Source: Intrasporangiaceae bacterium URHB0013
Lineage (GTDB): Bacteria; Actinomycetota; Actinomycetes; Actinomycetales; Dermatophilaceae
Assembly: GCA_000620545.1 (NCBI GenBank)
Contig: KK211150.1
Location: 415,423 to 479,422 of the forward strand
DNA length: 64,000 nucleotides
Direction of reading: 5' to 3'
The translations under genes were made by a program, and so were the position numbers. Positions 159 to 61,400 of this stretch are shown one piece after another (within the stretch, counting starts at the first letter, position 1; the number at the start of each line of letters is the position of its first letter). Below the pieces are notes generated by a model. The model saw nothing but the letters and a program-made list of their open reading frames with translations. It ran no database searches and was not told the DNA's origin.

Positions 159-3100
159 TCACCCCTGCAGGCCCGCCTCGATGGCGGCGATGATGCGTGG
201 ACGCAGGTCGCGGGCTTCGATGACGGCGTCGACCGAGCCCACCGAGACCGCACGGTGGATGCTGTGCACCGCGTCGAACTCGGAGGCGACCTGGCCGAGC
301 TTCTCGGCGCGCACCGAGGTGCGCAGCTCGGCGAGCTCGGTGGCGAGCCGCGCGCGCTCGACGCCCGAGGCGGCCGCCACCTGGCTCTCGAGCTCCGTGA
401 CGCGCGGGTCGGACGCCGTGCGGGCGTCGACGTCGCGGGAGAAGACGACGGCCGCAGCAGGTGCACCGCCGAGGACCGACGCGAACGACCCCTCGACGGC
501 GAGCACCGTCATGCGCGGGTTGAGCGTCTTGGAGAAGACGACGAAGGCGCCACCGTGGTAGCGGGAGACGACGGTGAAGACGATCGGCCCGTCGAAGTTG
601 ACGATGGCCCGGCCGATCTCGGCGCCGTACTCGAGCTGGAGGCTGCGCATCGACTCGGGCGACCCGTCGAAGCCGGACAGGTTCGCCAGGACGACGACCG
701 GGCGGTTGCCGCTCGCCGCGTTGAGGGCGCGCGCCACCTTCTTGCTCGACCGTGGGAAGAGCGTGCCGGCCGTGTAGGCATCGGGGCCGTCGGTGGGCGG
801 GAACCCGCGGCGCGGCACCGACTTCGACTCGATCCCGATGAGGCACACGGGGATACCACCGACGTGAGCATCCTGCACGACGGCCGTCTCGGCGTCGGCC
901 ATGCCGGCCCAGCGCTCGAGCGGCTCGTGATCCTGGTCGGACACCGCGCGCATCACCGTGCGGATGTCGAACGCCTTCTTGCGGTCCGGGTTGGTCAGGG
1001 CCGAGAAGATGTCGCCGACCGTCGTGAAGCCGGAGTCGGCGGGGTCGTGCGGGTAGAGCGCCACGTCGCGGTCCGTCGGGTCGCTCGTCGCGACGCGGCG
1101 CGGACCGGGCTCGCCCGGGCTGACGTACGCGTGGTCGTAGTGCGCCATGAGGATGTCCCGGGCGCCCGCGAGGTCCTTGGCCCAGTACTGCGCCTGCCCG
1201 TTCGGGCCCATGACGCGGTCGTAGCCACCGATGCCGAAGTTGTCCTCGGCCGAGACGCCCCCGGAGAAGTCGAGGGACTGCTTGCCGGTGAGGACCATGG
1301 CGCTGTCGGGCGTCATGACGAGGATGCCCTTGGTGTGCATGAGCATCGTGGCCTCCGCGTTCCAGTAGGGCTGGGCGCCGACGTTGATGCCCGCGACGAC
1401 GATGTTGATCTCACCGCCCGCCTGGGTGAACTCGATGATCCGCTTGAGCGCGCGGGCCACCCAGTCCATGTTCTCGGTGCCGGAGTCCATCGAGATGCGG
1501 GCGCCGGCCGAGAGGGAGTACCACTCGAGCGGCACCTGCATGCGTTCCGCGAGGTCGATGGCGGCGATGATGCGTGCGCATTCCGCCTCGGCCACGGATC
1601 CCAACGAACGCAGCGGGTCGCCCGAGAGGACGACCCGCGTGACGCCCTCCGGGTGGCGCGCCGTCGGCGAGCTGACGACGGCGACGATGATGCCGGCCTT
1701 GTTGAGGCCCTGCGGACGGTCGACGGCCACGAGGGCGCCCGTGTCGTCGAGGTCGTGCTCGACGACGGTGCCTCCGTCGCCGGCGATCATGGACTGCAGC
1801 TCGTAGGGGTAGACGAGACCACGGCGACGGGCTCGGACGACCTTGGAGGTGTAGTCGTCGAGCGGCTTGAGCGGCTCGGTGGGCGGTGCTCCGAGGGTGC
1901 TGGTGACCCCCGCTCCCGGCTGGTAGAAGAAGCGGCCGGCGATCGGCAGCGGGGCCTCACCGCGGGCGCCGGCCACCTTGGCCTGGACGAGCACCTCCTC
2001 GATGCCTGCGCCGGCGGTGATGGGGGCGATCTTGTTCTGCAGGGCCGTCAGCTGCCCGACGTCGGCCTCGATGGTCGGCCAGATCTGCACCCACACGTGG
2101 TTCATGTCGAGCTTGGAGGCCCGCAGGCCGCGGCTCGCGCGGACGCTGCGGATCGCCTCCAGGCAGTTCGCGATCGCACGCTCCACGTGCGGCAGACCGG
2201 TCACCTGTCCCGACTCGTCCCGCACGACGACGATCTGGCGCACCTGCGCCAGCGCGACGAGACGGTGGTCCTCGGGGTTGTCCCTCGCCACGCACTCGTA
2301 GAGCAGCACGTCCTCGGGGCCGGCGAGCCGCTTGACGTCGAACGCCGTCAAGCGCCACAGGTTGAGCCGGCGCCCCACCATGGGGTGGACGCCACGGACC
2401 AGCCGGTCCTCCACGAGCGTGCCACCGGACGGGCGGAAGGTGAAGTAGCCGACCGGACCCCCCTGGCCGGCGCTGACTGCGACGGCCACCCGGCGGACGT
2501 CCTGGGCGAAGGGCAGCTGCTGCAGGAGGGCCGCGAGCTGCTCGCTGGCGGCGTCGGGCGACTCCGGCTCCTGCGGCCAGCGCAGGTAGAGGTCGACGAC
2601 TGACTGGTGTCGCTCGGGGCGCGCCCAGACGTCGTTGGACACCGCGGCGTCGAGCGGGCTGCCGGGGGCGAGCTCGTCGACGGCGCCGATGGTCGAGGTG
2701 AGGTGCGTCGGTCGGTCGTCGAGGGTGTAGTCGGCTGTCGCGAACGGCCGGCCGCCCTCGGTGAACGTGTGCAGGCCGTGCAGCTCGTGCTCGCGGTAGT
2801 GCCGCTTGATGAGGATCTCGAGCATCGGCTCGTGCTCGGGAAGGCGCTCGGGCGCCTCCTCGTGCAGCCGTTCGGCGAGGAAACGGACGATCTGCTCCGG
2901 GATGGCGGCGAGCTCGTCGACCCGCGCGGCGTGGTCCCCGGCGTCCGGCTCGACCGCGAGCGCGGCGAGCTTGTCGCGCACCCCGGCCAGGACGCTCTCG
3001 CGCTCCTCGTCGACGAGCGGCTGGTCGAACCACCGGAAGCGGACGCTGCGCGCGAGGTCCCCGATGACGGGGAAGCGCAGCTGGGTCGCGACCACGAGAC

Positions 3101-6625: not shown

Positions 6626-7258
6626 GTGACCACGATCGACGACGTCAGACCAGTCGCCCGCACCGCCTCGCAGGTCTCGCTCGACGTCGTCCTCGGCCCG
6701 ATGAAGTCGGGCAAGAGCCTCACCCTCATCTCCATGCTGTCGCCGCTGCAGTTCACACGGGTGCGCCACCGCGTCTACCAGTCCGAGCGGCACGTGCGTG
6801 ACACCGGCGTCACCTCCCGCAGCGGCGGCGAGCTCGCGACGACGAAGGTTGCCAGCCTGCGTGCCGCCCTCGACGAGCAGCTCGACGTCGTGGCCGTCGA
6901 CGAGGTCCACATGTTCGGGCTCGACGACATCCGCGTGGTGGAGCAGCTGCTGCGCCGCGGCACCCGAGTGGTGCTGGCCGGTATCGACCTCGACCACCGC
7001 GGTGAGCTCTTCGCGACGGTCCGCGCCCTGCTCGAGCTCGGACCCGACACCGTGAGCTACCGGCGCGCGGTCTGCGACCAGTGCCGTGACTTCAGTGCCA
7101 CGCACACGCAGGTGCTCCGCGCGGGCGAGCCGTTCCTCGAGCACCTCGGAGGCTCCGAGGCGCTGCCCGACGACGGCACCTTCACCTACGAGGCGCGCTG
7201 CCGATCCTGCTTCGTGCGGCCCGGAGCCGGGACCGCCTCTGCCACGACTCGCGGATGA
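6626..7258 (+). CDS. tdk: Thymidine kinase (type II)
   Basis: 210 residues; phosphorylates thymidine to dTMP in the pyrimidine salvage pathway. The P-loop GPMKSGKS is at residues 24-31, the DEVHMF segment with the presumed catalytic Glu is at 92-97, and the C-terminal half has two Cys pairs (CDQC and CRSC) for the structural zinc of the tetrameric family. I chose GTG 6626 rather than TTG 6617 because the -10 box TAGCGT sits where a leaderless start is expected and TTG would lie inside it. The stop overlaps the next start by 4 bases (ATGA), so the DinB-like gene is translationally coupled. Length matches bacterial Tdk proteins. Confidence 0.93.
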   Translation: MTTIDDVRPVARTASQVSLDVVLGPMKSGKSLTLISMLSPLQFTRVRHRVYQSERHVRDTGVTSRSGGELATTKVASLRAALDEQLDVVAVDEVHMFGLDDIRVVEQLLRRGTRVVLAGIDLDHRGELFATVRALLELGPDTVSYRRAVCDQCRDFSATHTQVLRAGEPFLEHLGGSEALPDDGTFTYEARCRSCFVRPGAGTASATTRG

Positions 7259-39364: not shown

Positions 39365-40765
39365 TCAGCCGTTGCGGCGCGCGATGGCGGTCGAGAGTGC
39401 GGTCGCGAACCCGCACCACGCGGCATACGGCGACAGGGCGACCCCGGCCCCCTTGCTGACGGTGCCCGTGCGCCGGGCGAGCTCGGCCGAGCTCGCGGTG
39501 AGCAGGGCGGCCTCGGCGGCGGCCACCCACGGCTTGCGCACGCGCCAGAAGAGGAGGCTCCACGCCGCGTTGAGGGCGAGGTTGGTGCCGAACGCCTTGA
39601 GGTAGGCGTTGCGGCCCGCCCTGTCGCCGGCCTGGTCGTACGCGTTGAGCGCGGTGGCCGAGGTGGCGGCGATGTCGGCGTAGAGCGCGGTCCACACGAC
39701 CGGGAAGGCGAGCGTCGGCGGCTGCCAGTCCGGGAGGTCCAGCGAGCGGTACCACCTCGAGTTCGGCTGGGTGGCAAGCGAACCCACGACCGCGCTCGCG
39801 ACCGTGGCCGCACTCGTCAGGGCGAGGTTGCGCATCGCCGTGTCGGGACCCACGGTGCGCATCGCCGCACGCACGGCGGTGTCGAAGTCGGTGAGGCCAC
39901 CGGGCACCTCCACGTGGTCGAGCAGGTCGTTCTCCTTGGCGACGACCTCGTGGACGAGGCTGCCGACGAGGGGCTTGGCAAGGCCTGCCGAGATGGGGGT
40001 GACGAGCCCCACCCAGTGGCTCGCGAGGCGCGGTGTCAGCACGGGCACGGTGACGACGAACGGGCGCCGTCGGCCCGTGGCGTCGGAGAAGCGCGCGATC
40101 ATCTCGCGGTAGGTCAGCACCTCGGGGCCGCCGATGTCGAAGGTGCGGTTGACCTCCGGTGGGAGGCTCCCCGCGCCCACGAGCAACGTCACGACGTCGT
40201 CGATCGCGATCGGCTGGATCCTGTTCTCGAGCCACTTCGGCGCGACCATCGCCGGCAGGCGCGTCGTCAGGTAGCGCAGCATGTCGAACGACGCCGACCC
40301 GTCGCCGAGCACGACAGCCGCCTGGAGCACCGCTGTGGGAACCCCCGAGTCGAGCAGGATGCGGCCGACCTCGACACGCGAGGCGAGGTGGGGCGAGAGC
40401 AGCTCGTCGTCCGGGTGCAGCCCGCCGAGGTAGACGATGCGCGAGACGCCGGTCTCCTTGGCCGCATCCGAGAAGTGCGTCGCGGCCTCCCGGTCCCTCT
40501 CCTGGAAGTCGGGCTGGTCGTCCATCGAGTGCACGAGGTACCAGGCGGCGTCCACGCCGTCGAGAGCCCGACGCATGTCGTCCACGGACGCGACGTCACC
40601 CTCGGCGACCTCGACCCGGTCGACCCACGGCCTGCCGTCCATCGAGCCGCGGTGGCGGGTCAGCACGCGCACGGTCCAGCCCTCGTCGAGCAGTCGGGGC
40701 ACGACCTGGCCCCCGACGTAGCCGGAGGCCCCGGTCACGAGGGCGGTGCGGGAGGAGGAGGTCAT
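39365..40765 (-). CDS. SDR NAD(P)-binding protein fused to a TspO/MBR membrane domain
   Basis: 466 residues in two parts. Residues 1 to about 320 form an NmrA/SDR-like Rossmann protein (VTGASGYVGGQV at 9-20, HSMDDQPDF, RIVYLGGLHPDDELLSPHL). Residues about 335-460 are a TspO/MBR translocator with the family's WYRSLDLPDWQPP start, FPVVWTALY and NAAWSLLFWR motifs. TspO proteins bind tetrapyrroles and are linked to light and stress responses in bacteria. The fusion suggests redox action on a pigment or lipid. ATG 40765 follows the CPBP stop by 4 bp, with AGGTGA as ribosome-binding site. It is the last gene of the LitR-controlled leftward operon. Confidence 0.88.
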   Translation of the reverse strand: MTSSSRTALVTGASGYVGGQVVPRLLDEGWTVRVLTRHRGSMDGRPWVDRVEVAEGDVASVDDMRRALDGVDAAWYLVHSMDDQPDFQERDREAATHFSDAAKETGVSRIVYLGGLHPDDELLSPHLASRVEVGRILLDSGVPTAVLQAAVVLGDGSASFDMLRYLTTRLPAMVAPKWLENRIQPIAIDDVVTLLVGAGSLPPEVNRTFDIGGPEVLTYREMIARFSDATGRRRPFVVTVPVLTPRLASHWVGLVTPISAGLAKPLVGSLVHEVVAKENDLLDHVEVPGGLTDFDTAVRAAMRTVGPDTAMRNLALTSAATVASAVVGSLATQPNSRWYRSLDLPDWQPPTLAFPVVWTALYADIAATSATALNAYDQAGDRAGRNAYLKAFGTNLALNAAWSLLFWRVRKPWVAAAEAALLTASSAELARRTGTVSKGAGVALSPYAAWCGFATALSTAIARRNG

Positions 40766-40769
40766 GGAA

Positions 40770-41492
40770 TCACCTGGTCAGCTCGAGGGCGGGCGGGAGG
40801 AGCAGGAGCATCCCGGTCGACCACGTGACGTGCGTGATGATCGGGCCGAGGATGCCGCCCGTGACCCGTCGCTGCAGCGCGGTGACGAGTCCGAGGATGG
40901 CAGCGGCGAGCACGAGGAGCGGGATGCCGCTGCCCACCGTCGTGAGGGCGTAGAGCACGGTGGTGATGGCGACCGCGTGGGACGGGAGGGCGGCATACAG
41001 CGCCCCACGGAAGTAGAGCTCCTCGACGACACCGTTGAGCATCGTGATGGCGAGGACCACCGGCAGGGAGCCGAACCGCGCGTGGTCGAGCAGCTCGTCG
41101 ACGGGCTCGCGCAGGAACGGGATGCGTGCCACGACGAGCGCGGCGCCGAGGAAGATGACGAGGAGCAGCGCCCCGAGGACGAGCGACTGCACCACGGGGC
41201 GCGACTCGTGCTCGCCGGAGCGGGTGTGCCCGCGGCCGACATGAAGTGGTCCCGAGGCCACCGCGCCGACGCCCCACACGGCCGCCAGTGCGATCGAGGC
41301 CGGGTAGAAGACGGGGTCGCCCGGTGGGATGCGCAGTGCCCAGGCCAGCACGGCGGATCCCACGAGGAGCGTGACGGCGACGACGACGCGACGGCGGGTG
41401 CGCGCCTCCGGCGGGTCGACGTGCTGGCCCCGGACGGGCACGAGCAGGGCTGCGTCGAGGAAGGCGCGCAGCTCGGCGACCGGTCCTCTCAC
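40770..41492 (-). CDS. CPBP-family intramembrane metalloprotease
   Basis: 240 residues, about six hydrophobic segments, with the CPBP motif EELYFRG (Glu157, Glu158 and Arg162) and a downstream THVTWS motif (His221), the metal-binding set of CAAX-processing-like proteases. The target is unknown. GTG 41492 is preferred over upstream starts because an AGGAGGAG site ends about 7 bases before it. It lies 16 bp after the photolyase stop. CPBP and TspO genes together are a common tail of LitR-linked clusters (inference). Confidence 0.85.
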   Translation of the reverse strand: MRGPVAELRAFLDAALLVPVRGQHVDPPEARTRRRVVVAVTLLVGSAVLAWALRIPPGDPVFYPASIALAAVWGVGAVASGPLHVGRGHTRSGEHESRPVVQSLVLGALLLVIFLGAALVVARIPFLREPVDELLDHARFGSLPVVLAITMLNGVVEELYFRGALYAALPSHAVAITTVLYALTTVGSGIPLLVLAAAILGLVTALQRRVTGGILGPIITHVTWSTGMLLLLPPALELTR

Positions 41493-41508
41493 CTGCTCTC
41501 CTCCTGCA

Positions 41509-42867
41509 TCAGCGACGGGCATGGTCGTAGCGGGCCAAGGTCTCCTTGCGCTCGTCGTCGTGGTCGATGACCGGCCGGGGATACTCGTCGTCGTACCCGT
41601 TGTCATGCTTCCACGGCTCGTGGACCGCCCGGCCGGGCAGGTGCCGCAGCTCGGGGACCCAGCGCCGGACGTACTCGCCGTCGGGGTCGAACCTTTTGCC
41701 CTGCGTCACCGGGTTGAAGACCCGGACGTAGGGCGAGGCATCGGTGCCGGTGCCCGCGACCCACTGCCAGCTATGGTTGTTCGAGGCGATGTCGCCGTCG
41801 ACGAGGTGGTCGAGGAAGTGCTGCGCCCCGACCGGCCACCACACGTGGAGGTCCTTCGTGAGGAAGCTGGCCGTGATCATCCGCACCCGGTTGTGCATCC
41901 AGCCCTCCTCGAGGAGCTGGCGCATGCCCGCGTCGACGATGGGGTAGCCGGTGCGCCCCTCGCGCCACGCGTCGACGAGGCGGTCGGTCTCGTCACCCGA
42001 GTCGTAGGGGAGCCTCGCGAGCTCGGGCCGCAGGTCATGCCAGGCCGAGTCGGGCCGGTGCCACAGCACGTCGGCGTAGAACTCGCGCCAGACCAGCTCG
42101 GTGACGTAGGTGCGAGCGGCCTCTGAGCGCCCGGCCGAGTGGGTCGCGATGTCGGCGAGGATCGTGCGCGGGTGGATCTCGCCGTACTTGAGGGGAGCCG
42201 ACAGTCGGCTCGTCGTGTCGAGGTCGGGTCGGTCGCGTTCGTCGTCGTATGCCGTCAGCCCGTTGTGGAGGAAGGTCTCCCAGCGCTTGAGCGCGGCCGC
42301 CTCGCCGGCCTCCATGGCAGGCGCCTCGGGAAGCGGGTCGCCGCGGACATCGTCGCGCAGCCACGGGATGCGCTCCGGACGTGCTGCCGGAGCGGGCCGC
42401 CCGTGCTCGTGCCAGGCTTTCGCGAACGGCGTGAAGACCTGGTAGGGCGAGCCCGACCGGTTGACGATGCGACCGGGCCCGACGGCATACGGCGTGCCGG
42501 TCGCGACGAGCTCGCGTCCGTCCGCGGCCAGGGCGGTCTCGACGGCCTCGTCACGGCGGCGGCCGTAGGGCGTCGTCTCTCGCGAGACGTGCACCTGCTG
42601 CGCCCCGACCTGGGCGGCGAGCCGCGGGATGACGTCGGCGGGGTGGCCGTGCCGGATGACGAGAGCGCCACCGGTGTCCTTCGACAGCGACCTGAGGGAC
42701 GCGAGCAGGCGTCGGCTCCGTGGCGTGTCCGTGGCGAGCAGGCGCGGGTCGAGGACGAAGACCGGCAGCACCTGGCTGGCGGCGTCCATGGCCGCGAGCA
42801 GTGCCGGGTGGTCGCCCAGCCGCAGGTCCCGCCGGAACCAGAGGATCGACCGCGTCGCCGGTGCCAT
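41509..42867 (-). CDS. phr: Deoxyribodipyrimidine photolyase
   Basis: 452 residues of the class I CPD photolyase/cryptochrome family. The N-terminal antenna domain begins ILWFRRDLRLGDHPAL, and the FAD-binding C-terminal half has TYVTELVWREFYADVLW, GYPIVDAGMRQLLEEGWMHNRVRM and SNNHSWQWVAGTGTDASPY, all hallmarks of light-driven repair of UV dimers. ATG 42867 overlaps the cfa stop by one base (TGATG); GTG 42870 is possible. It is part of the leftward LitR regulon, which makes functional sense because light induces it. Confidence 0.95.
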   Translation of the reverse strand: MAPATRSILWFRRDLRLGDHPALLAAMDAASQVLPVFVLDPRLLATDTPRSRRLLASLRSLSKDTGGALVIRHGHPADVIPRLAAQVGAQQVHVSRETTPYGRRRDEAVETALAADGRELVATGTPYAVGPGRIVNRSGSPYQVFTPFAKAWHEHGRPAPAARPERIPWLRDDVRGDPLPEAPAMEAGEAAALKRWETFLHNGLTAYDDERDRPDLDTTSRLSAPLKYGEIHPRTILADIATHSAGRSEAARTYVTELVWREFYADVLWHRPDSAWHDLRPELARLPYDSGDETDRLVDAWREGRTGYPIVDAGMRQLLEEGWMHNRVRMITASFLTKDLHVWWPVGAQHFLDHLVDGDIASNNHSWQWVAGTGTDASPYVRVFNPVTQGKRFDPDGEYVRRWVPELRHLPGRAVHEPWKHDNGYDDEYPRPVIDHDDERKETLARYDHARR

Positions 42868-44144
42868 CACGCGGCCGCGGCCGCGGCGCCCTCCCGCTCA
42901 AAGCGCACCTGGGCGACGTCGAGGTAGCCCGTCGCGAATCCCGCCTCGCAGTAGGCGAGGTAGAACTCCCACTTGCGGCGGAAGGTCTCGTCGAAGCCGA
43001 GCGCGTGGACCTCGGGCCAGCGGCCCAGGAAGGTCTCGCGCCAGCGGCGCAGGGTCTCGGCGTAGTCGGCGCCGAAGCTCTCGACGGCCGACATGCGCAG
43101 CGTCGTGGCGGCCTCGGTCGTCTCGCTCATCGCCTGCAGGCTCGGGATGAGGCCGCCGGGGAAGATGTGCTTCTGGATCCAGCCGTAGGAGTGCCTCGTC
43201 GCCATGAGCCGCTCGTGCGACATGAGGATCGCCTGGACCGCGGCGATGCCGCCCGGGGCCAGTCGCTCGTCGATGGAGCGGAAGTAGGTCTCCCAGTACT
43301 CCTCGCCGACGGCCTCGATCATCTCGACGCTGACGACGGCGTCGTAGACGCCTTCGACCTCGCGGTAGTCCTGGAGGCGGATGTCGACGGCGTGGGTGAG
43401 GCCGGCCTGCTCCACCCGCTGTCGGGCGAGAGCCGCCTGCTCCCTGGACAGTGTCACGCTCGTGACCGTCGCACCGCGGCGCGCTGCCTCGAGGGCCAGG
43501 GTGCCCCAGCCGGTGCCGATCTCGAGGAGGCGGGTGTGCTGGCCGACCTTCGCCATGTCGAGGATGGCGTGCACCTTTCGCAGCTGCGCGTCCTCGAAGG
43601 ACTGCGTCCGCAGCGGCTGGTCCTCGTCGAAGATCGCCGAGCTGTAGCTCATCGTCCTGTCGAGGAACGTCGCGAAGAGGTCGTTGGACAGGTCGTAGTG
43701 CGCCTCGATGTTGCGGCGCGAGCCGAGCAGCGAGTTGTTCTGGATGCTCGGGATGCGCCGGTCGACGAAGCCACGCAGCCGCAGCCATCCCTCGGGGACT
43801 GCCGTCGTCATGCGCTCGGCGAACGGCACGAGCAGCTCGGCGAGGTCGGTGCCCTCGGCAGCCTTCCAGTCACCGGCCATGTAGGCCTCCCCGATACCGA
43901 TCTTCGGGTGGTGGGCGAGACGCTCGAAGACCGCGGTCGGGCGCACGATCTCGAGCCCCGGGCGATCAGCGCGGCGTGTACCGCCGGCGAGGAGCGAGCC
44001 GTCCGGCAGGATGACGTCGACCGGCACGCGCTTGGCGACCTCGGCGAGGATGCTGCGGGCCAGGCGCGCGCGCAGGCACAGCACGCGCAGGGTGGGTCGG
44101 CGCAGGCACAGCGGCTGCGTCATGGTGGGCGACTGGGCGGTCAT
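42867..44144 (-). CDS. cfa: Cyclopropane-fatty-acyl-phospholipid synthase family methyltransferase
   Basis: 425 residues. The SAM-binding motif LLEIGTGWGTLALEAA is near 208-222. The CFA signature HYDLSNDLF and YSSAIF precede it, and IEAVGEEYWETYF (acid/Glu motif) and MSHERLMATRHSYGWIQKHIFPGG follow. Transfers a methylene or methyl group from S-adenosylmethionine to unsaturated acyl chains of membrane lipids. ATG 44144 overlaps the DUF1365 stop (ATGA). In light-inducible clusters these enzymes probably remodel membrane lipids against photo-oxidation (inference). Confidence 0.93.
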   Translation of the reverse strand: MTAQSPTMTQPLCLRRPTLRVLCLRARLARSILAEVAKRVPVDVILPDGSLLAGGTRRADRPGLEIVRPTAVFERLAHHPKIGIGEAYMAGDWKAAEGTDLAELLVPFAERMTTAVPEGWLRLRGFVDRRIPSIQNNSLLGSRRNIEAHYDLSNDLFATFLDRTMSYSSAIFDEDQPLRTQSFEDAQLRKVHAILDMAKVGQHTRLLEIGTGWGTLALEAARRGATVTSVTLSREQAALARQRVEQAGLTHAVDIRLQDYREVEGVYDAVVSVEMIEAVGEEYWETYFRSIDERLAPGGIAAVQAILMSHERLMATRHSYGWIQKHIFPGGLIPSLQAMSETTEAATTLRMSAVESFGADYAETLRRWRETFLGRWPEVHALGFDETFRRKWEFYLAYCEAGFATGYLDVAQVRFEREGAAAAAA

Positions 44145-44896
44145 CGGACGACCTCCTCGAGGTGGCGGGGGCGGGGCATGACGGGCAGACGGCGCAACCA
44201 CAGTCGTATGCCGTGTACCCGGATGAGGGCCGTCACTCGCTGCGTGACGAGGCCGTGACGACGGACGAGGCGGAGGAGCGCGCGGGCCGTGGCCGGTTCT
44301 GGGGTGCCGCGGGTGACGGCGGTCAGGACGCGCTCGCCGTCGCGGTCGAGGCCCACCGTCACGGAGACCGCGCCGGGCTCGAGGACGAGCCGGACGGCAT
44401 ACTCCCCGCGGGTGTCGTTGAAGGGTGAGACGTAGAACGCCTTGTCCACGGTCGCGGTGCCGTCGTCATGGACGTCGAGGAGGTACGCGTGCCGCTCGCC
44501 GTAGGTGTTGTGCACCTCGAAGACGACGGCCAGCAGCGAGCCGTCCGGTCGTAGGCACCAGAAGACCGACAGCGGGTCGAACGTGTGGCCGAGGACGCGC
44601 GCGTTGGCGAGCATGAGCACCCGGTCGTCGGAGGCGAGCCGCACGTCACGGGCGGCGAGGAAGCGCTCGACGTCACCGCGGATGCCGCCGCCGAGCGCGC
44701 CACCGTCGAGGTGGTCACGAACGTCGAACTTCGCGAGCAGCCTTGTCGGCCAAGGAAGTCGGGGGAGTCGATCGATGTCGACGAGCCACTGGTAGTGGCC
44801 GTGGGTGAAGCCGTGGTGCAACGGCGTGCGGCGCGAGTGGGAGACGGTGCCGTCGACCAGCGCGGGCACCTTCGGCGGCGTCAGGACGATGGTCAC
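44141..44896 (-). CDS. DUF1365 family protein
   Basis: 251 residues with the N-terminal RTPLHHGFTHGHYQWLVDID block and the central DPLSVFWCLRPDGSLLAVVFEVHNTYGERHAY block typical of DUF1365, a family of unknown function almost always placed between an FAD oxidoreductase and a cyclopropane synthase, as here. GTG 44896 overlaps the oxidoreductase stop (GTGA). A role in fatty-acid modification with its neighbours (furan or related ring formation) is suggested by context, not by motif. Confidence 0.93.
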   Translation of the reverse strand: MTIVLTPPKVPALVDGTVSHSRRTPLHHGFTHGHYQWLVDIDRLPRLPWPTRLLAKFDVRDHLDGGALGGGIRGDVERFLAARDVRLASDDRVLMLANARVLGHTFDPLSVFWCLRPDGSLLAVVFEVHNTYGERHAYLLDVHDDGTATVDKAFYVSPFNDTRGEYAVRLVLEPGAVSVTVGLDRDGERVLTAVTRGTPEPATARALLRLVRRHGLVTQRVTALIRVHGIRLWLRRLPVMPRPRHLEEVVR

Positions 44897-46221
44897 CAGC
44901 GCACCCCGAAGGACTCTGCGGCCTCCACGCCGGAGCGGCAGCCGTCCTCGTGGAAGCCCCAGCCGAGGTGCGCGCCCGCGAAGGCCAGGCGCTCGCCGCC
45001 GCCCTCGCGCAGTCGGGTCGCGGCCTCGACGGCCTCGCGGGTGAAGACCGGGTGGTCGTAGGACATCCGCGCCGTGACGAGCGACTCGTCGACGGAGCCG
45101 GCCGGGTTGAGCGTCACGACGTGGTCCTCGGCGTCGGTGATGCCCTGCAGGCGGTTCATCCAGTAGCTGACGGTGACGTCGGGGGCCGGCGCGTCACACG
45201 TGCGCATGCGGTAGTTCCAGGAGGCCTTGGCCTGGCGCGGTTCCGGCAGGACCGAGGAGTCGCGGTGCAACCAGGTCTCGTTGCGGGAGTAGCGGATTGC
45301 CGAGAGGTCGCGCTTCTCGTCGGGCGTCGCGTCGGCGAGCAGGTCGAGCGCCTGGTCGGCGTGGGTGGCGACGACGGCTCGGTCGAACGTCGTCAGCTGC
45401 CCGCCGCGCACGCGCACGTCGACGCCGTCGTCGTGCCTCGTCACGGCCGTCACCGGGCTCTGGCTGCGCACGTCGGGCAGGCGCTCGACGAGCCGGCCGA
45501 CGTAGGTCGCCGATCCGCCGGTGACGGTGCGCCAGGTGGGCGACCCCGTCACCGTGAGCATGCCGTGGTGGTCGAGGAACCGGAAGAGGTGGCGCGCCGG
45601 GTAGGACGACGCGTCGAGGTCGCCGCACGACCAGACGCAGGCCACGAGCGGGATGGCGAAATGGCGCACGAAGTAGTCGGAGAAGCGCTGTGCAGCAAGG
45701 AACTCGCCCCATGTCGGGTCCTGCGACCCGTCGGCCAGCAGGGCACGCGCCGCCGCGTGGAAGCGCGGCACCTCACGGAGCATCCGGACGAAGCGCGGGT
45801 CGGCCAGGCGGCGCTTCTGGGCGAACATGCCCTTGGGGCCGCGCCCTCCGGCATACGACAGGCCGCAGCCCTCGCACGTGATGCTCATGCTCATCTCGGT
45901 GGGCTGGGTGGGCACGTCGAGCTCGCTGAAGAGGCGCAGCAGGTGCGGGTAGGTCCGCTCGTTGTGCACGATGAAGCCGCTGTCGATGCGCAGCGTCCCG
46001 TCGCGCCCCGGGACGTCGTGGGTGTGCGCGTGCCCGCCGAGGCGCGAGTCGCTCTCGAAGAGGGTCACGTCGTGCGTCGTGCTGAGCACGTGGGCGGCGG
46101 TCAGGCCGGAGACTCCCGCACCGATGACGGCGGCGGTGGGACGGGGCGTGCTGGTGGTGCGGGCCGTGCTGGCCGTGCTGCTCGTGCTGGCCGTGCTGAC
46201 GGATCGGTTCGGTCGAGTCAC
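44893..46221 (-). CDS. FAD-dependent amine-oxidase-like oxidoreductase, first gene of the leftward light operon
   Basis: 442 residues. After a low-complexity Ser/Thr/Ala stretch (residues 9-25, encoded by a GTGCTG-like repeat) comes the FAD Rossmann motif VIGAGVSGL (32-40) and the DSRLGGHAHT segment, then RIDSGFIVHNERTYPHLLRL typical of the NAD(P)/FAD proteins paired with DUF1365. Probably desaturates or oxidises an acyl chain together with Cfa and DUF1365. GTG 46221 has AGGAGG 6 bases upstream and begins the LitR-regulated leftward operon with promoter TTGACA-N18-TACAGT (46347-46376). Confidence 0.92.
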   Translation of the reverse strand: MTRPNRSVSTASTSSTASTARTTSTPRPTAAVIGAGVSGLTAAHVLSTTHDVTLFESDSRLGGHAHTHDVPGRDGTLRIDSGFIVHNERTYPHLLRLFSELDVPTQPTEMSMSITCEGCGLSYAGGRGPKGMFAQKRRLADPRFVRMLREVPRFHAAARALLADGSQDPTWGEFLAAQRFSDYFVRHFAIPLVACVWSCGDLDASSYPARHLFRFLDHHGMLTVTGSPTWRTVTGGSATYVGRLVERLPDVRSQSPVTAVTRHDDGVDVRVRGGQLTTFDRAVVATHADQALDLLADATPDEKRDLSAIRYSRNETWLHRDSSVLPEPRQAKASWNYRMRTCDAPAPDVTVSYWMNRLQGITDAEDHVVTLNPAGSVDESLVTARMSYDHPVFTREAVEAATRLREGGGERLAFAGAHLGWGFHEDGCRSGVEAAESFGVRW

Positions 46222-46327
46222 CGAGGCCTCCTGGCTGATGTGGTCCCGGGTGGTTCGGCGCGGAGCCCCGACCGGATGGTGCGACCATGGTTCGCACTGT
46301 CGAAACGGATGGTTCTGGAGTGGTGCG

Positions 46328-46356
46328 TTGTCCATCCTTCGGCCAGACTGTAGAGT
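46328..46356 (+). promoter_or_regulatory. Rightward promoter of the SRPBCC-litR-cobK operon
   Basis: TTGTCC (46328-46333), 17-base spacer, TAGAGT (46351-46356). The -10 box lies inside the first 11-bp operator repeat. The leader is about 28 nt with a GGAG site. Confidence 0.6.
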
Positions 46357-46376
46357 GTCTGTTCAACGTCTGTCAA
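46347..46376 (-). promoter_or_regulatory. Leftward promoter of the light-inducible operon
   Basis: TTGACA (46371-46376), 18-base spacer, TACAGT (46347-46352) on the minus strand, the best sigma-A-like promoter in the window. It is fully covered by the three operator repeats, as expected for dark repression. Confidence 0.75.
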
Positions 46377-46380
46377 AGGT
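46348..46380. promoter_or_regulatory. LitR/CarH operator: three 11-bp direct repeats
   Basis: Contiguous units CTGTAGAGTGT (46348-46358), CTGTTCAACGT (46359-46369), CTGTCAAAGGT (46370-46380). On the minus strand each reads ACnnTnnACAG, which contains TnnACA, the element recognised by B12-dependent CarH proteins, at the same 11-bp spacing. The array spans the leftward -35 to -10 and the rightward -10 box. Confidence 0.8.
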
Positions 46381-46390
46381 TGGAGAAGGC

Positions 46391-46846
46391 ATGGACATCG
46401 AGCGAAGCGTCACCGTGGGTCACCCGATCGACCGCGTCTTCGCCTACCTCAGCGACTTCACCACCACGACGGAGTGGGACCCCGGCACCGTCCGCACCGA
46501 GCTCGTCTCGGGGGACGGCGGGGTCGGCACGCGCTACCACAACGTGTCGAAGTTCCTCGGCCGCGAGACGGATCTCGAGTACCTCGTCGTCGAGAACGTG
46601 CCGGGCGAGAGGTTCGCCCTCCGCGGCGAGAACGCCACGGTCGTCGCGAAGGACACGATGACCTTCGTGCGCACGGTGACGGGGTCGGGCGCCACCCTCG
46701 GCGAGGGCACGACAGTGACCTACCGGGCGGACTTCGAGTTCAAGGGTGTGGCCAGGTTCGTCGCCCCGCTGCTCGCGCCGGCCTTCAAGAAGCTCGGCGA
46801 CGAGGCCGAGCAGGGCATGCGGGAAGCCCTGAGCAGGTTGGCGTAG
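46391..46846 (+). CDS. SRPBCC-family protein in the litR operon
   Basis: 151 residues with a Bet v1/START-like pattern: ERSVTVGHPIDRVFAYLSDFTTTTEWDPG, several strands, and a C-terminal helix (LLAPAFKKLGDEAEQGMREALSRL). Such proteins bind lipids or pigments; in this setting it may carry a product of the leftward enzymes (inference). ATG 46391 has GGAG 5 bases upstream. It is followed 3 bp later by the litR start. It sits directly under the LitR operator. Confidence 0.87.
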   Translation: MDIERSVTVGHPIDRVFAYLSDFTTTTEWDPGTVRTELVSGDGGVGTRYHNVSKFLGRETDLEYLVVENVPGERFALRGENATVVAKDTMTFVRTVTGSGATLGEGTTVTYRADFEFKGVARFVAPLLAPAFKKLGDEAEQGMREALSRLA

Positions 46847-46849
46847 TCG

Positions 46850-47785
46850 ATGTACACCATCAAGCGTGCCGCCGAGCTGACCGGGATCAGCGTCGCCACC
46901 CTGCGCGCCTGGGAGCGCCGCTACGCCGTCGTCAGCCCCCAGCGGTCGGACGGCGGCTACCGCCTCTACGGACCCGAGGACGTCCGCGCCCTGGCCATCA
47001 TGAACTCCCTCGTCAACGAGGGCTGGTCGGCCCGCGAGGCCGCCGCCGAGACGACCCGCCGGCTCGCCAGCCGTGACGCCGGCGGCCGTCAGGCCGGGTC
47101 CGGCCGGGCTGACCGCGACCGCCGCGGTGCCGGCGTCGCACCGCTGCGCCCGGGGGGTCGCTACCAGTCGGAGGACGCCGAGGCCTTCGTCCGCGCGGCC
47201 GAGCGCCTCGACTCCGCGTCGGCGACCGCCGTCCTCGACGCTCGCTTCGCGCTCGGCACCTTCGAGCACGTCGTCGACGACTGGCTCATGCCGACCCTCC
47301 AGCTCGTCGGTGAGGAGTGGGCGCACGGCCGCCTCACCGTCGCTGGTGAGCACCTCGTGTCGTATGCCGTGCAGCGCCGTCTCGCCGCCGCCTACGAGGC
47401 CGCGTCGGGCCGGGTCGACGGTCCGACCCTGCTCATCGGGCTGCCGCCCGGTTCCCGTCACGAGCTGGGCCTGCTCGCCTTCGCCGTGGCGGCGCGACGT
47501 GCCGGGTTCGCGACGGTCTACGTCGGTGCCGACCTCCCGGTGGAGGACTGGCTGCGTGCCATCGAGGCCCGTCGGGCGGCCGGGATGGTCATGGCCGTGC
47601 CGCGCGACATCGACATCGACGCGGCGCAGGCGATCGTCGACACCGTCACCCAGGTCCACCCGGAGGTCGTCATCGGCCTCGGCGGCAGCCAGCAGAACGA
47701 GATCACCGGTTCCTGCGTGCACCTCGGCCACTCGATCACCGTCGCCGTCGGTGAGATGACCCGCCGGCTACGCGTCCCGGCCTGA
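46850..47785 (+). CDS. litR: LitR/CarH-type B12-dependent photoreceptor repressor
   Basis: 311 residues. N-terminal MerR HTH (YTIKRAAELTGISVATLRAW, wing GGYRLY), a linker of about 35 residues, then a helical bundle with W157...E167-H168 (the W-x9-EH motif that covers the upper face of cobalamin) and a Rossmann B12 domain with the lower-ligand His204 in GSRHELG. Adenosylcobalamin holds the tetramer on DNA in the dark, and light breaks the Co-C bond and releases it. The residue aligned with Thermus CarH His132 is Ala158, with a His one position later, so the photolysed adduct may differ. ATG 46850 lies 3 bp after the SRPBCC stop; cobK follows after 2 bp. Confidence 0.93.
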   Translation: MYTIKRAAELTGISVATLRAWERRYAVVSPQRSDGGYRLYGPEDVRALAIMNSLVNEGWSAREAAAETTRRLASRDAGGRQAGSGRADRDRRGAGVAPLRPGGRYQSEDAEAFVRAAERLDSASATAVLDARFALGTFEHVVDDWLMPTLQLVGEEWAHGRLTVAGEHLVSYAVQRRLAAAYEAASGRVDGPTLLIGLPPGSRHELGLLAFAVAARRAGFATVYVGADLPVEDWLRAIEARRAAGMVMAVPRDIDIDAAQAIVDTVTQVHPEVVIGLGGSQQNEITGSCVHLGHSITVAVGEMTRRLRVPA

Positions 47786-47787
47786 CC

Positions 47788-48546
47788 GTGCGTGTCCTCG
47801 TCCTCGGTGGCACGGGAGAGGCTCGAGACCTCGCCGCCCGCCTCGTCGGTCGTGGCGACGCCGTCGTGTCGAGCCTCGCCGGGCGGGTCGGCGCGCCCGC
47901 CCTGCCGGTCGGCGAGGTGCGCACCGGGGGCTTCGGCGGCGTCGACGGCCTGGCCGACCACATCGTCGGGGAGCGCTACGAGGCGGTCGTCGACGCGACA
48001 CACCCGTTCGCGGCGCAGATCACCCGCAACGCCGTCGCCGCCTGCGCCCGCATCGGGGTCCCTCTCGTGCGCCTCCAGCGACCGGGGTGGTCGCAGCACC
48101 CCCTCGCTCGTGGCTTCACCTGGGTGCACGACGTCGAGGCCGCGCGGGTCGCGGCTGAGCAGCTCGGGGTCCGGCCCTTCCTCACGACCGGGCGCCAGCA
48201 GCTCGACAGCTTCGCCGCGTGGGACGACCGCTACGTCCTGGCCCGCGTCGTGGACCCGCCCGACTGGGACGTCCCGGTCAGCTGGGAGCTCCTGCGTGCA
48301 CGTGGGCCCTATTCGTATGCCGCCGAGCGCGACCTCATCGCGAGCCGGGCCGTCGACGTGCTCCTCACCAAGGACTCCGGCGGCGCCCTCACGGAGGCCA
48401 AGCTGGCGGCCGCGCACGACCTGGGAGTGCCGGTCGTCGTCGTGCGCCGGCCGCCCGTCCCCGAGGGCCTGCCCGTGGTCGAGTCGGTGGGCGAGGCGCT
48501 CGACGTCCTCGACGGTCTAAAGCCAGCCGACCCCCGCGCGCGGTAA
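47788..48546 (+). CDS. cobK: Precorrin-6A/cobalt-precorrin-6A reductase
   Basis: 252 residues with the N-terminal nucleotide motif VLVLGGTGEARDLA and the family motifs VDATHPFAAQITRNA (near 68-82) and LTKDSGGALTEAKLAAA near 196-212. Reduces precorrin-6A with NADPH in the aerobic-type cobalamin pathway. It starts 2 bp after litR, so the gene that makes B12 is in the same operon as the B12-dependent repressor, giving a direct link between cofactor supply and light response. Confidence 0.94.
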   Translation: MRVLVLGGTGEARDLAARLVGRGDAVVSSLAGRVGAPALPVGEVRTGGFGGVDGLADHIVGERYEAVVDATHPFAAQITRNAVAACARIGVPLVRLQRPGWSQHPLARGFTWVHDVEAARVAAEQLGVRPFLTTGRQQLDSFAAWDDRYVLARVVDPPDWDVPVSWELLRARGPYSYAAERDLIASRAVDVLLTKDSGGALTEAKLAAAHDLGVPVVVVRRPPVPEGLPVVESVGEALDVLDGLKPADPRAR

Positions 48547-54787: not shown

Positions 54788-55395
54788 CACTCGATCCCCC
54801 GCTGTCCCTTCTGGCCCGCGTCGAACGGGTGCTTCACCTTCGTCATCTCGGTGACGAGGTCCGCGAGCTCGAGGACGGCCTCGGGACACCGGCGGCCCGT
54901 GACGACGACGTGCTGGGAACCGGGCCGGTCGCGCAGGGAGGTCACGACATCGTCGACGTCGATCCAGCCCCACGCCATCGGGTAGGTGAACTCGTCGAGG
55001 ACGTAGAGCCCGTGGACCTCGGCGGCGAGCCGGCGCTTGATCTCGGCCCAGCCCTCGCGAGCGGCCGCGGCGTGGTCCTCCTCGGTGCCCTCCTTGCGGG
55101 TCCACGACCAGCCGGCGCCCATCTTGTGCCACTCCATCGGCCCGCCCCTGCCGGTGTCGCGGTGGAGCTCGGCAAGGGTCTCGACGGCGGTCTGCTCGCC
55201 GATGCGCCACTTCGCGCTCTTGACGAACTGGAAGACCCCCACCGACCAGCCCTGGTTCCAACCGCGCAGGGCCAAGCCGAAGGCCGCCGTCGACTTCCCC
55301 TTGCCGTCACCGGTGTTGACGATGAGAAGCGGTCGGTTGCGCCGCTGCCGCGTGGTGAGGCCGTCGGTGGGGACCGTGGCCGGCTGGCCGCGCAT
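54784..55395 (-). CDS. cobO: Cob(I)alamin/cob(I)yrinate adenosyltransferase, CobO type
   Basis: 203 residues with the P-loop TGDGKGKST (28-36), the downstream FVKSAKWRIGE and MGAGWSWTRKEGTEEDHAAA motifs, and VLDEFTYPMAWGWI. Transfers the 5'-deoxyadenosyl group to the cobalt, so it makes the coenzyme form sensed by both the riboswitches and LitR. ATG 55395 overlaps the chlID stop by one base (TGATG). Confidence 0.95.
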   Translation of the reverse strand: MRGQPATVPTDGLTTRQRRNRPLLIVNTGDGKGKSTAAFGLALRGWNQGWSVGVFQFVKSAKWRIGEQTAVETLAELHRDTGRGGPMEWHKMGAGWSWTRKEGTEEDHAAAAREGWAEIKRRLAAEVHGLYVLDEFTYPMAWGWIDVDDVVTSLRDRPGSQHVVVTGRRCPEAVLELADLVTEMTKVKHPFDAGQKGQRGIEW

Positions 55396-57563
55396 CAGGC
55401 GGCCCGCTCGCGGATGGCACGGCTGGCACCGATGGCACGGGTCGCGTGAGCGCTGCGGGCCGCGCCGACGATGGCTGACGCGGCGAGCTCGCCGACCGGC
55501 AGGTGCTCCGCCCCGAGCTGCTCGGCGAGCAGGGCGGCCAGGCCCATCCGGAACCGTCCCGCCTCGCAGTCGAGGACAACGCTCTCGACCCCCTCTTGGC
55601 GCAGCCGCCCGGCGGCGCGCGCGGCACGGCCCAGTGCGTCCGTGCCGCTCGTCGCCCGGCCGTCGGTGACGACGACGAGCAGCGGGCGCCGGTGCGGGTC
55701 GCGCAGCCGCTCGACGCGCAACGTGTCGTATGCCGTCTCGAGCCCTTCCGCGAGCGGCGTCCGTCCGCCGTGCGGCAGCTCCCGCAGCCGGCGGGCCGCG
55801 ATGTCGACCGAACCGGTGGGCGGGAGCGTGAGCTCGGCGCCCGCCCCGCGGAACGTCACGAGGCCGACCTTGTCGCGGCGCTGGTACGCGTCGAGGAGCA
55901 GGGAGAGCACCGCCGACTTCACCGCCTCCATGCGCTTGCGGGCGGCCATCGACCCCGACGCGTCGACGCACAGGAGCACGAGGTTGGACTCGCGTCCCTG
56001 CAGCACCGAACGGCGCAGGTCGCTCGGCGCCACCCGCAGGCGCCCCGTCCCGGCGCCCCGAGCGGCCGCGGCACGGATGGTGGCAGGGACGTGGACGGGA
56101 CCGGTGCGCGCGTTCGTCGACCCGACCCGGCGTCCGGTGCTGGTGTGGGCCGCCGAACGCCGACCGGGGTCGCCCTGCCCGATTCCCTTGGCGCGCAGGA
56201 GCTTCGCGCGGTAGGGCTCGTCGGACGTGCTGACCCCCGAGCCGGCCACACTGCCGGCACTCGTGGACGTCCGGTCCGGCTCGCCGCAGTCGCCGTCGCC
56301 GGGGTGGTTCTCGGCGCGCTGCGGCTCCGCCTCACGTTCCGTCTCATGTCCCGGCTCGCGCGAGGCCGCCGACTCCGGCTCGGAGGGCGTGCCCGGCTGC
56401 GCCGGGTCGTCGTCCGGCGTCCCTGGCTCGTCGCCGTCCCTGTCGCCGTCTCCCCGACCGGGATCCGGCTCTGGGTCCGGCTCGGGGTCCGGCTCGTCGT
56501 CGCCGAGCAGCCGGTCGAGGAGGTCCTCGTCGAGGCCGGGGGAGTCGAACGGGTTGCGGCGCCGTCGGTGCGGGAGGGCCAGCCGGGCGGCAGCCCGCAC
56601 GTCGGCGACGCCCACCGTGGTCCGGCCCGACCACGCCGCGTGTGCGACGGCGGCGCGCGCCGTGACGATGTCGGCACGCAAGCCGTCGACCTCGAACGCG
56701 GCACACACCGTCGCGATCCTCGTCAGCATGGCGTCCGTCAGCGTCACCGTGCGGACACGCGCCCGCGCGTCGGCGATGCGTCCGCGCAACGCCTCCTGGT
56801 CCTTCTCGAACCGCGCCACGAAAGCGGCCGGCTCGACGTCGAAGGCCAGGCGGCGGCGTACGACCTCGGCGCGCAGCGCGGGCTCCCGTGGAGCGGCGAC
56901 CTCGACGGTCAGCCCGAAGCGGTCGAGCAGCTGCGGTCGCAGCTCGCCCTCCTCGGGGTTCATCGTGCCGACGAGAACGATCCGTGCGGCGTGCGAGACC
57001 GAGACCCCGTCGCGCTCGACGGTGTTGCGCCCCATCGCCGCCGCGTCGAGCAGGAGGTCGACGAGGTGGTCGTGGAGGAGGTTCACCTCGTCGACGTAGA
57101 GGATGCCGCGGTTGGCCGCGGCGAGCAGGCCTGGCTGGTAGGCCGTCTCGCCGCGTCCCAGCGCCCGTTCCAGGTCGAGCGAACCGATGACGCGGTCCTC
57201 GGTCGCACCGATCGGCAGCTCGACGAGACGGGCGGCGCGCGTGGAGGCCTCGGCGCCGGCGTCGTGCGGCCCGTCGGGGCACCCCGCGCCGTCACCGGGG
57301 GCGCAGCCGAAGCGGCAGCCGGCGACGACGGACTGGCGCGGCAGCACGGCGGCGAGGCCACGCACCATCGTCGACTTCGCGGTGCCCTTCTCGCCGCGAA
57401 CGAGCACGCCGCCCACCTCGGGCGAGACGGCCGTGAGGACGAGCGCCAGGGCGAGGTCGTCGGAGCCCACGACGGCCGAGAAGGGAAAGATGTCGGGCGG
57501 GGACCCGTGCTGGTCGGGGTCGTTGGAGCCGTCGTTCGAGCCGTCGTTCGAGCCGTCGCGCAT
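55395..57563 (-). CDS. Fused ChlI-ChlD-type chelatase ATPase subunit (probable cobaltochelatase partner)
   Basis: 722 residues. An AAA+ ChlI/BchI part (Walker A GEKGTAKST, 57-65; Walker B ILYVDEVNLLHDHLVDLLLDAA; sensor VGTMNPEEGELRPQLLDRFGL) is joined through an acidic Asp/Glu/Pro-rich linker to a ChlD-like VWA domain with MIDAS DASGSM. Fused forms serve the CobN-type cobaltochelatase in actinobacteria. No cobN lies in this window. The N-terminus holds three GSND repeats from 12-bp tandem DNA repeats, probably of no importance. The gene is first behind a cobalamin riboswitch. Confidence 0.92.
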   Translation of the reverse strand: MRDGSNDGSNDGSNDPDQHGSPPDIFPFSAVVGSDDLALALVLTAVSPEVGGVLVRGEKGTAKSTMVRGLAAVLPRQSVVAGCRFGCAPGDGAGCPDGPHDAGAEASTRAARLVELPIGATEDRVIGSLDLERALGRGETAYQPGLLAAANRGILYVDEVNLLHDHLVDLLLDAAAMGRNTVERDGVSVSHAARIVLVGTMNPEEGELRPQLLDRFGLTVEVAAPREPALRAEVVRRRLAFDVEPAAFVARFEKDQEALRGRIADARARVRTVTLTDAMLTRIATVCAAFEVDGLRADIVTARAAVAHAAWSGRTTVGVADVRAAARLALPHRRRRNPFDSPGLDEDLLDRLLGDDEPDPEPDPEPDPGRGDGDRDGDEPGTPDDDPAQPGTPSEPESAASREPGHETEREAEPQRAENHPGDGDCGEPDRTSTSAGSVAGSGVSTSDEPYRAKLLRAKGIGQGDPGRRSAAHTSTGRRVGSTNARTGPVHVPATIRAAAARGAGTGRLRVAPSDLRRSVLQGRESNLVLLCVDASGSMAARKRMEAVKSAVLSLLLDAYQRRDKVGLVTFRGAGAELTLPPTGSVDIAARRLRELPHGGRTPLAEGLETAYDTLRVERLRDPHRRPLLVVVTDGRATSGTDALGRAARAAGRLRQEGVESVVLDCEAGRFRMGLAALLAEQLGAEHLPVGELAASAIVGAARSAHATRAIGASRAIRERAA

Positions 57564-57624: not shown

Positions 57625-57755
57625 GCGACCAGCGACGGGAGATGCCCTGGCTTCCGCCCGACCGCGTGGTCGGGCGTTCACAGTGGCGGGACCGCTCCGG
57701 ATTCGCACCGGATTCCTCTCCCAGTCGCCAGCGGCAGTCTGCCACGTCGCCGGGG
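57625..57755 (-). ncRNA. Cobalamin riboswitch upstream of chlID-cobO-cobB-cobC-cobA-cbiB
   Basis: On the minus strand the core GGTGCGAATCC (57699-57709) with flanking GAATCCGG...CGGTCCCGCCACTGTGA is the conserved cobalamin-riboswitch heart, and the B12 box GCCAGGGCATCTCCC is at 57637-57651. A following GCGCCCG/CGGGCGC hairpin (57611-57626 region) may be the expression platform. It ends about 60 bp before ATG 57563. Confidence 0.9.
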
Positions 57756-61170: not shown

Positions 61171-61184
61171 CGACGGCCCTGTGT

Positions 61185-61355
61185 CAGGATGCGCGTGCCG
61201 CAGTGCACGGGAAGTCGGTGTGATTCCGACGTGGTCCTCGCCACTGTGACCAGGGAGCAAGTCCCCACCATTCGCCACTGGTGACCTCGGTTTGACGCCG
61301 GGTCGCTGGGAAGGCTGGGGAGGCGTGACGATCTGGAAGCCAGGAGACCGGCTGC
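61185..61355 (+). ncRNA. Cobalamin riboswitch upstream of cbtBA
   Basis: Core GGGAAGTCGGTGTGATTCC followed by GACGTGGTCCTCGCCACTGTGACC (about 61219-61250), and the B12 box GCCAGGAGACCGGC at 61339-61352. A large variable insert lies between. It ends about 45 bp before the cbtB start ATG 61401. Confidence 0.92.
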
Positions 61356-61400
61356 GGCGTGATCTGTCCACGAGGCATGGAAAGAAAGGGTCAATCTGCC

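Follow-up and report, generated by a model that had tools for sequence, protein, structure and literature searches.

A candidate CarH-type LitR operator spanning two divergent promoters near photolyase and lipid-related genes in a soil actinobacterium

Introduction

In the genome of Intrasporangiaceae bacterium URHB0013, a short region separates a rightward gene group encoding the MerR-family regulator LitR from a leftward group that includes a DNA photolyase, and promoter-like sequences for both directions are interlaced with three short repeat units. Is this region an operator of the neighbouring LitR, and if so, what might it control? We addressed this question in a window of 64,000 nucleotides (the whole stretch of DNA analysed), following up an earlier note that had proposed a single B12- and light-dependent switch for nine genes. 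Our preferred reading, to which we assign a probability of roughly 0.85, is that positions 46348-46380 are the predicted operator of LitR, from which adenosylcobalamin (AdoCbl)-bound LitR would repress both divergent promoters in the dark, with light or a lack of AdoCbl relieving the repression. We identify the operator by comparison, take the light and B12 steps from knowledge of the protein family, and infer the dark binding, repression and release. By its sequence the putative operator is a further example of an established CarH/LitR type in a soil actinobacterium, and it gives Terrabacter and neighbouring genera a conserved, testable CarH-type candidate with ACCTTnnACA units; B12-based light sensing in these genera would be tied to photolyase and lipid-related genes. 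The locus also directs attention to naturally occurring LitR proteins that lack His132; whether light release requires this residue is a point on which published studies differ, as recounted in PMC10442372.

Results and discussion

Pfam assignments agreed with the names previously given to the nine flanking proteins (Table 1), and no carotenoid gene was found among the nine by this means. The rightward genes are closely packed, with gaps of 3 bases between the SRPBCC gene and litR and of 2 bases between litR and cobK, and the leftward open frames adjoin or overlap one another. An ATG at 46335 was considered as the start of the FAD oxidoreductase and rejected in favour of the GTG at 46221, since an AGGAGG-like site and the GTG recur in the relatives shown.

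Table 1. Features of the litR locus, numbered by position in the window.
Feature	Position	Strand	Basis or remark
SDR-TspO fusion	39365..40765	-	Pfam
CPBP / Rce1-like membrane protein	40770..41606	-	Pfam; start uncertain
DNA photolyase	41509..42870	-	Pfam
Cyclopropane-fatty-acid-synthase-like methyltransferase (cfa)	42867..44201	-	Pfam; start uncertain
DUF1365 protein	44141..44896	-	Pfam
FAD-dependent oxidoreductase	44893..46221	-	Pfam; GTG start at 46221
Rightward promoter candidate TTGTCC-N17-TAGAGT	46328..46356	+	Consensus only; TTGTCC 46328-46333, TAGAGT 46351-46356
Isolated TGGACA	46329..46334	-	Two bases out of register, on rightward -35; kept in 15/20 stacked operators
Leftward promoter candidate TTGACA-N18-TACAGT	46347..46376	-	Consensus only; TTGACA 46376-46371, TACAGT 46352-46347
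Unit 1, CarH-type ACACTCTACAG (plus strand CTGTAGAGTGT)	46348..46358	-	Over both -10s
Unit 2, CarH-type ACGTTGAACAG (plus strand CTGTTCAACGT)	46359..46369	-	Overlaps none of the four promoter hexamers; kept as ACCTTnnACA
Unit 3, CarH-type ACCTTTGACAG (plus strand CTGTCAAAGGT)	46370..46380	-	Contains leftward -35 TTGACA
SRPBCC (polyketide cyclase-like) protein	46391..46846	+	Pfam
litR: MerR DNA-binding, B12-binding_2, B12-binding (below cut-off)	46850..47785	+	Domains, PDB match
cobK, precorrin-6A reductase	47788..48546	+	Sole copy in genome
Cobalamin riboswitch match	57643-57715	-	Precedes leftward cobaltochelatase gene 55395-57563
Cobalamin riboswitch match	61184-61370	+	

Positions 46348-46380 consist of three contiguous 11-bp units, the minus strand reading ACACTCTACAG-ACGTTGAACAG-ACCTTTGACAG. 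The earlier note had described them as contiguous CTGTNNARNGT units carrying the TnnACA element of CarH sites on the other strand; the sequence is exactly so, and all three minus-strand units fit the CarH repeat nnnnTnnACAn as printed in PMC9304148. Its description of three perfect repeats holds for their number and contiguity but not for their perfection, as the units are non-identical and agree with a single consensus at 8 of 11 positions. CTGTNNARNGT occurs three times in the window, exclusively as these contiguous copies, against 1.35 expected, and 13 of 100 shuffles reach three, so that single units are unremarkable and it is their adjacency that stands out. Two adjacent units are found at this sole site in the 4.57-Mb genome, with no match for the reversed control, a uniqueness to be read in light of the pattern having been derived from 46348-46380 itself. 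In dinucleotide shuffles of 46336-46390, tandem TnnACA at 11-bp spacing arose as a triple in 0 and as a pair in 46 of 20,000 cases (0 and 70 of 20,000 for 46222-46390); these tests overstate the case, because the promoter hexamers contribute part of the periodicity. The TnnACA triple has one match and no reversed-control match in this genome, while the search of related genomes for the three-unit array that had been proposed as a check came out unfavourably, with two matches against three reversed-control matches over nine genomes of the genus, and the idea that the three-unit motif could mark such sites genome-wide was therefore rejected. The case for a putative operator is thus built on location and conservation, the triple alone not being decisive.

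With respect to location, the promoter hexamers and spacings claimed for both directions were borne out on reading the sequence, as was the overlap of the array with both promoters from the coordinates of these consensus matches. The two -10 elements overlap by two bases, and the final T of the leftward -10 (46347) falls one base beyond the array edge. CarH operators described elsewhere likewise overlap -35 and -10 elements (PMC9304148).

With respect to conservation, relatives of LitR were collected from named records as 35 loci (36 with the window), comprising eight same-genus loci (six Terrabacter, one Terracoccus and one Dermatophilaceae MAG; 85-93% identical), the remainder coming from Humibacillus, Intrasporangium, Knoellia, Janibacter, Nocardioides and a few MAGs. 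The divergent order of FAD oxidoreductase and SRPBCC-litR recurs in 27 of the 35. A tandem TnnACA pair was present at -200 to +15 of the litR operon start in 34 of the 36 loci, which are related by descent, and across all 36 this interval contained 46 pairs in a total of 7,740 bp versus 6 in the 493,720 bp of the remaining parts of these loci; when the inner bounds were widened somewhat, the outside pairs numbered five, each of them ahead of a gene for a secreted protein in Knoellia L048 or L052. No such pair was found in this interval in L057, where one unit reads TACG, or in L067, a partial LitR match with 29% identity and an uncertain start. In three of the 34 loci (L048, L049 and L052, the last at 6990-7012), the pair extends over the start codon of litR, which suggests either autoregulation or a coding coincidence. 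Seven Janibacter loci carry a second full pair 42-43 bp away from the first, and the space separating litR from a fasciclin gene in Chloroflexi L066 contains four pairs. Relatives' sites were also scored in one exploratory analysis, with weights picked after the relatives had been viewed. Because the array is common to related bacteria, the operator is probably real, and its original reading as a LitR/CarH operator is supported by the published motif, the promoter position, the CarH-matching neighbouring product and its recurrence at 34 of 36 loci.

A gapless stack anchored on unit 3 was assembled from 20 of the 36 loci (the window, L033-L047, L050, L053, L054 and L056), with Knoellia, Janibacter, L051, L057, L062 and L065-L067 outside it owing to their differing layout. 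The stack consensus is ACCTTTGACA followed by ACCTTnnACA. Conservation of unit 3 within the stack is circular, given its use as the search anchor; unit 2 is kept as ACCTTnnACA at 90% or more in each column. The TnnACA of unit 1 is intact in 2 of the 20 operators (the window and L047), and in the other eight same-genus loci its position is occupied by a pseudorepeat, CCACTCTACGG. On this alignment the conserved core of the putative operator is two units, and three perfect repeats were rejected as a conserved design. The isolated TGGACA on the rightward -35 may be either an operator element or a mere promoter element.

Among PDB entries, the litR product matches that of CarH, 5c8d (E=2.8e-30). 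Its best NCBIfam family is the CarH equivalog NF052513, at 128.8 bits far under the cut-off of 400, and its Pfam B12-binding match of 28.0 bits is below the cut-off of 32.1. The RxWERRY feature of MerR-type DNA-binding domains is present as RAWERRY, and the Wx9EH motif that contacts the adenosyl group as WAHGRLTVAGEH. For the B12 motif D/ExHx2G...SxT/V...GG, the His, the following G and the GG are present, with Ser at the D/E position and Ala-Val-Pro at SxT/V. The four light signatures given by PMC11796333 (GxxW, EH, GxxH and GxxxP) occur as GEEW, EH, GSRH and GADLP, and the equivalents of Trp131, Glu141, His142 and His177 are kept in the window LitR and in 35 of 35 relatives. The position of His132, the upper ligand in Thermus thermophilus CarH (TtCarH), is Ala in LitR; His occurs there in none of the 35 relatives, and it is absent from 28 of the 30 loci retrieved by searching across the phylum. 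According to PMC9304148, His132 is found in many but not all CarH homologues. Judged from these residues, light sensing by LitR is plausible, and release must differ from that of TtCarH or be weaker.

The absence of an upper His ligand raises an alternative that we consider unlikely, yet the best placed of those weighed here, namely that LitR binds at this site but reports mainly the level of AdoCbl and not light. Besides the Ala itself, the presence of a B12 gene in the operon and the report that H132A TtCarH stays mostly tetrameric under light (PMC10442372) speak for this view; the same paper, however, cites an earlier study in which H132A did disassemble, and CtMerR, with Arg at this position, is light-responsive (PMC11796333). 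The four light signatures of LitR and the photolyase in the operon also argue against it.

Under the preferred reading, of dark repression relieved by light, AdoCbl-loaded LitR would bind the tandem units as an oligomer in the dark, occupying the two conserved units together with the third that this genome has intact across the -10s, and would so block RNA polymerase at both divergent promoters. Light, or a lack of AdoCbl, would free LitR from the operator and allow expression of the leftward FAD oxidoreductase, DUF1365, cfa, photolyase, CPBP and SDR-TspO genes and of the rightward SRPBCC, litR and cobK genes. As litR would lie within an operon repressed by its own product, we propose that LitR limits its own synthesis.

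A further alternative, which we regard as improbable, retains LitR as the binder but has it activate in light in place of repressing in the dark, as is described for Streptomyces LitR, said to promote transcription of litS (PMC12705666). In this genome, an array-like site with just one intact TnnACA does precede a sigma-factor-like gene (L069; a 130-aa frame at 1551-1943 on the plus strand, with sigma-70 region 2 only), but an array lying over -35 and -10 elements is in a repressing position. It is still harder to credit that the main binder is a related MerR-B12 paralogue in place of this LitR: weaker LitR matches exist elsewhere in the genome (e.g. C13:152155-152934, 33% identity), but the array accompanies litR across genera. 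The least probable account, that there is no operator and that overlapping promoter hexamers 22 bp apart mimic repeats by chance, with TTGACA and TACAGT making up most of units 3 and 1, fares poorly against the conservation of unit 2 outside the hexamers and the occurrence of arrays in other layouts (e.g. Knoellia L052 and Chloroflexi L066).

The predicted LitR operator may be compared with several described systems. It resembles the TtCarH operator, reported as three tandem nnnnTnnACAn units of which one contains the -35 (PMC9304148), and the proteins match at the E=2.8e-30 given above; unlike that system, one array here would serve two divergent promoters, Ala replaces His132, and the putative targets are photolyase and lipid-related genes, whereas carotenoid genes are described as targets in Thermus (PMC9304148). 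As with myxobacterial CarH operators, relatives of the present site combine intact 11-bp units with degenerate ones over promoter elements, although those operators belong to another phylum and to carotenoid gene targets (PMC9304148). Pseudomonas class II LitR is likewise described near photolyase, SDR, FAD oxidoreductase and UfaM fatty-acid enzyme genes (PMC9758184), and such a gene set under a LitR is therefore not new; its sites, however, are TGTACA-N12-TGTACA as opposed to the 11-bp direct repeats seen here, and its relief by a LOV protein is a further difference. Streptomyces LitR-LitS is also an actinobacterial B12-based LitR system, but there control of crtE is reported to pass through the sigma factor LitS (PMC12705666), and none of the nine genes here is a carotenoid gene. 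A literature search joining LitR, light, DUF1365 and cyclopropane found no paper; among the matches listed, Terrabacter with LitR gave only unrelated titles, and CarH with four genus names gave none concerning CarH.

The position of cobK raises the question of chromophore supply. The gene is the only match to its family in the genome, and convergent to it are genes for CobD/CbiB, uroporphyrinogen-III methyltransferase, CobC and cobaltochelatase. It directly follows litR in 11 of 35 loci, and the same cob genes follow in nine of these, the other two (L039 and L046) being on contigs that stop too early; in L047, CobD is present but litR has no cobK next to it. Since the cob genes recur beside cobK, it may sit there because the cob cluster is its neighbour. 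More tentatively, the photoreceptor could govern its own chromophore supply, in that AdoCbl-LitR would repress the sole precorrin-6A reductase, with the convergent cob genes behind a cobalamin riboswitch, and light destroying the chromophore would switch on both photoprotection and the making of new chromophore, by way of a LitR able to release DNA without the His132 ligand. We consider this possible but doubtful.

Additional candidate sites were identified with a pattern derived from the operator. At up to two mismatches, 25 matches were distributed across all nine genomes of the genus, nine of them being the litR operator, with none for the reversed pattern; at three mismatches, this genome gave four matches against one for the control. 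Besides the litR operator, the matches with up to two mismatches in this genome include the L069 site before the sigma-70 region-2 frame and a site on another contig (L068, at 1501-1522). At L068, two CarH-type tandem pairs lie upstream of a gene for a 104-aa secreted protein (1161-1475, minus strand) that ends in YPWC and has no Pfam match. Homologues of this protein adjoin litR in Knoellia L048 and L052, and among the fetched loci a tandem pair lies upstream in seven of nine distinct homologue loci, being absent in L026 and L047/L019; no homologue was found beside the site in L079, L081, L082 or L083. Together, these comparisons suggest that the small secreted protein is probably a further, unlinked LitR target, missing from the nine genes originally proposed.

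Other matches had a different character. Near 1501-1522 in L084, L086 and L087, array-like sites occur intermingled with the inverted repeat TGTCCACA/TGTGGACA, with a luciferase-like oxidoreductase gene nearby, and these sites may belong to another regulator. In L090, an array-like site (1501-1522) precedes a MarR-family regulator gene.
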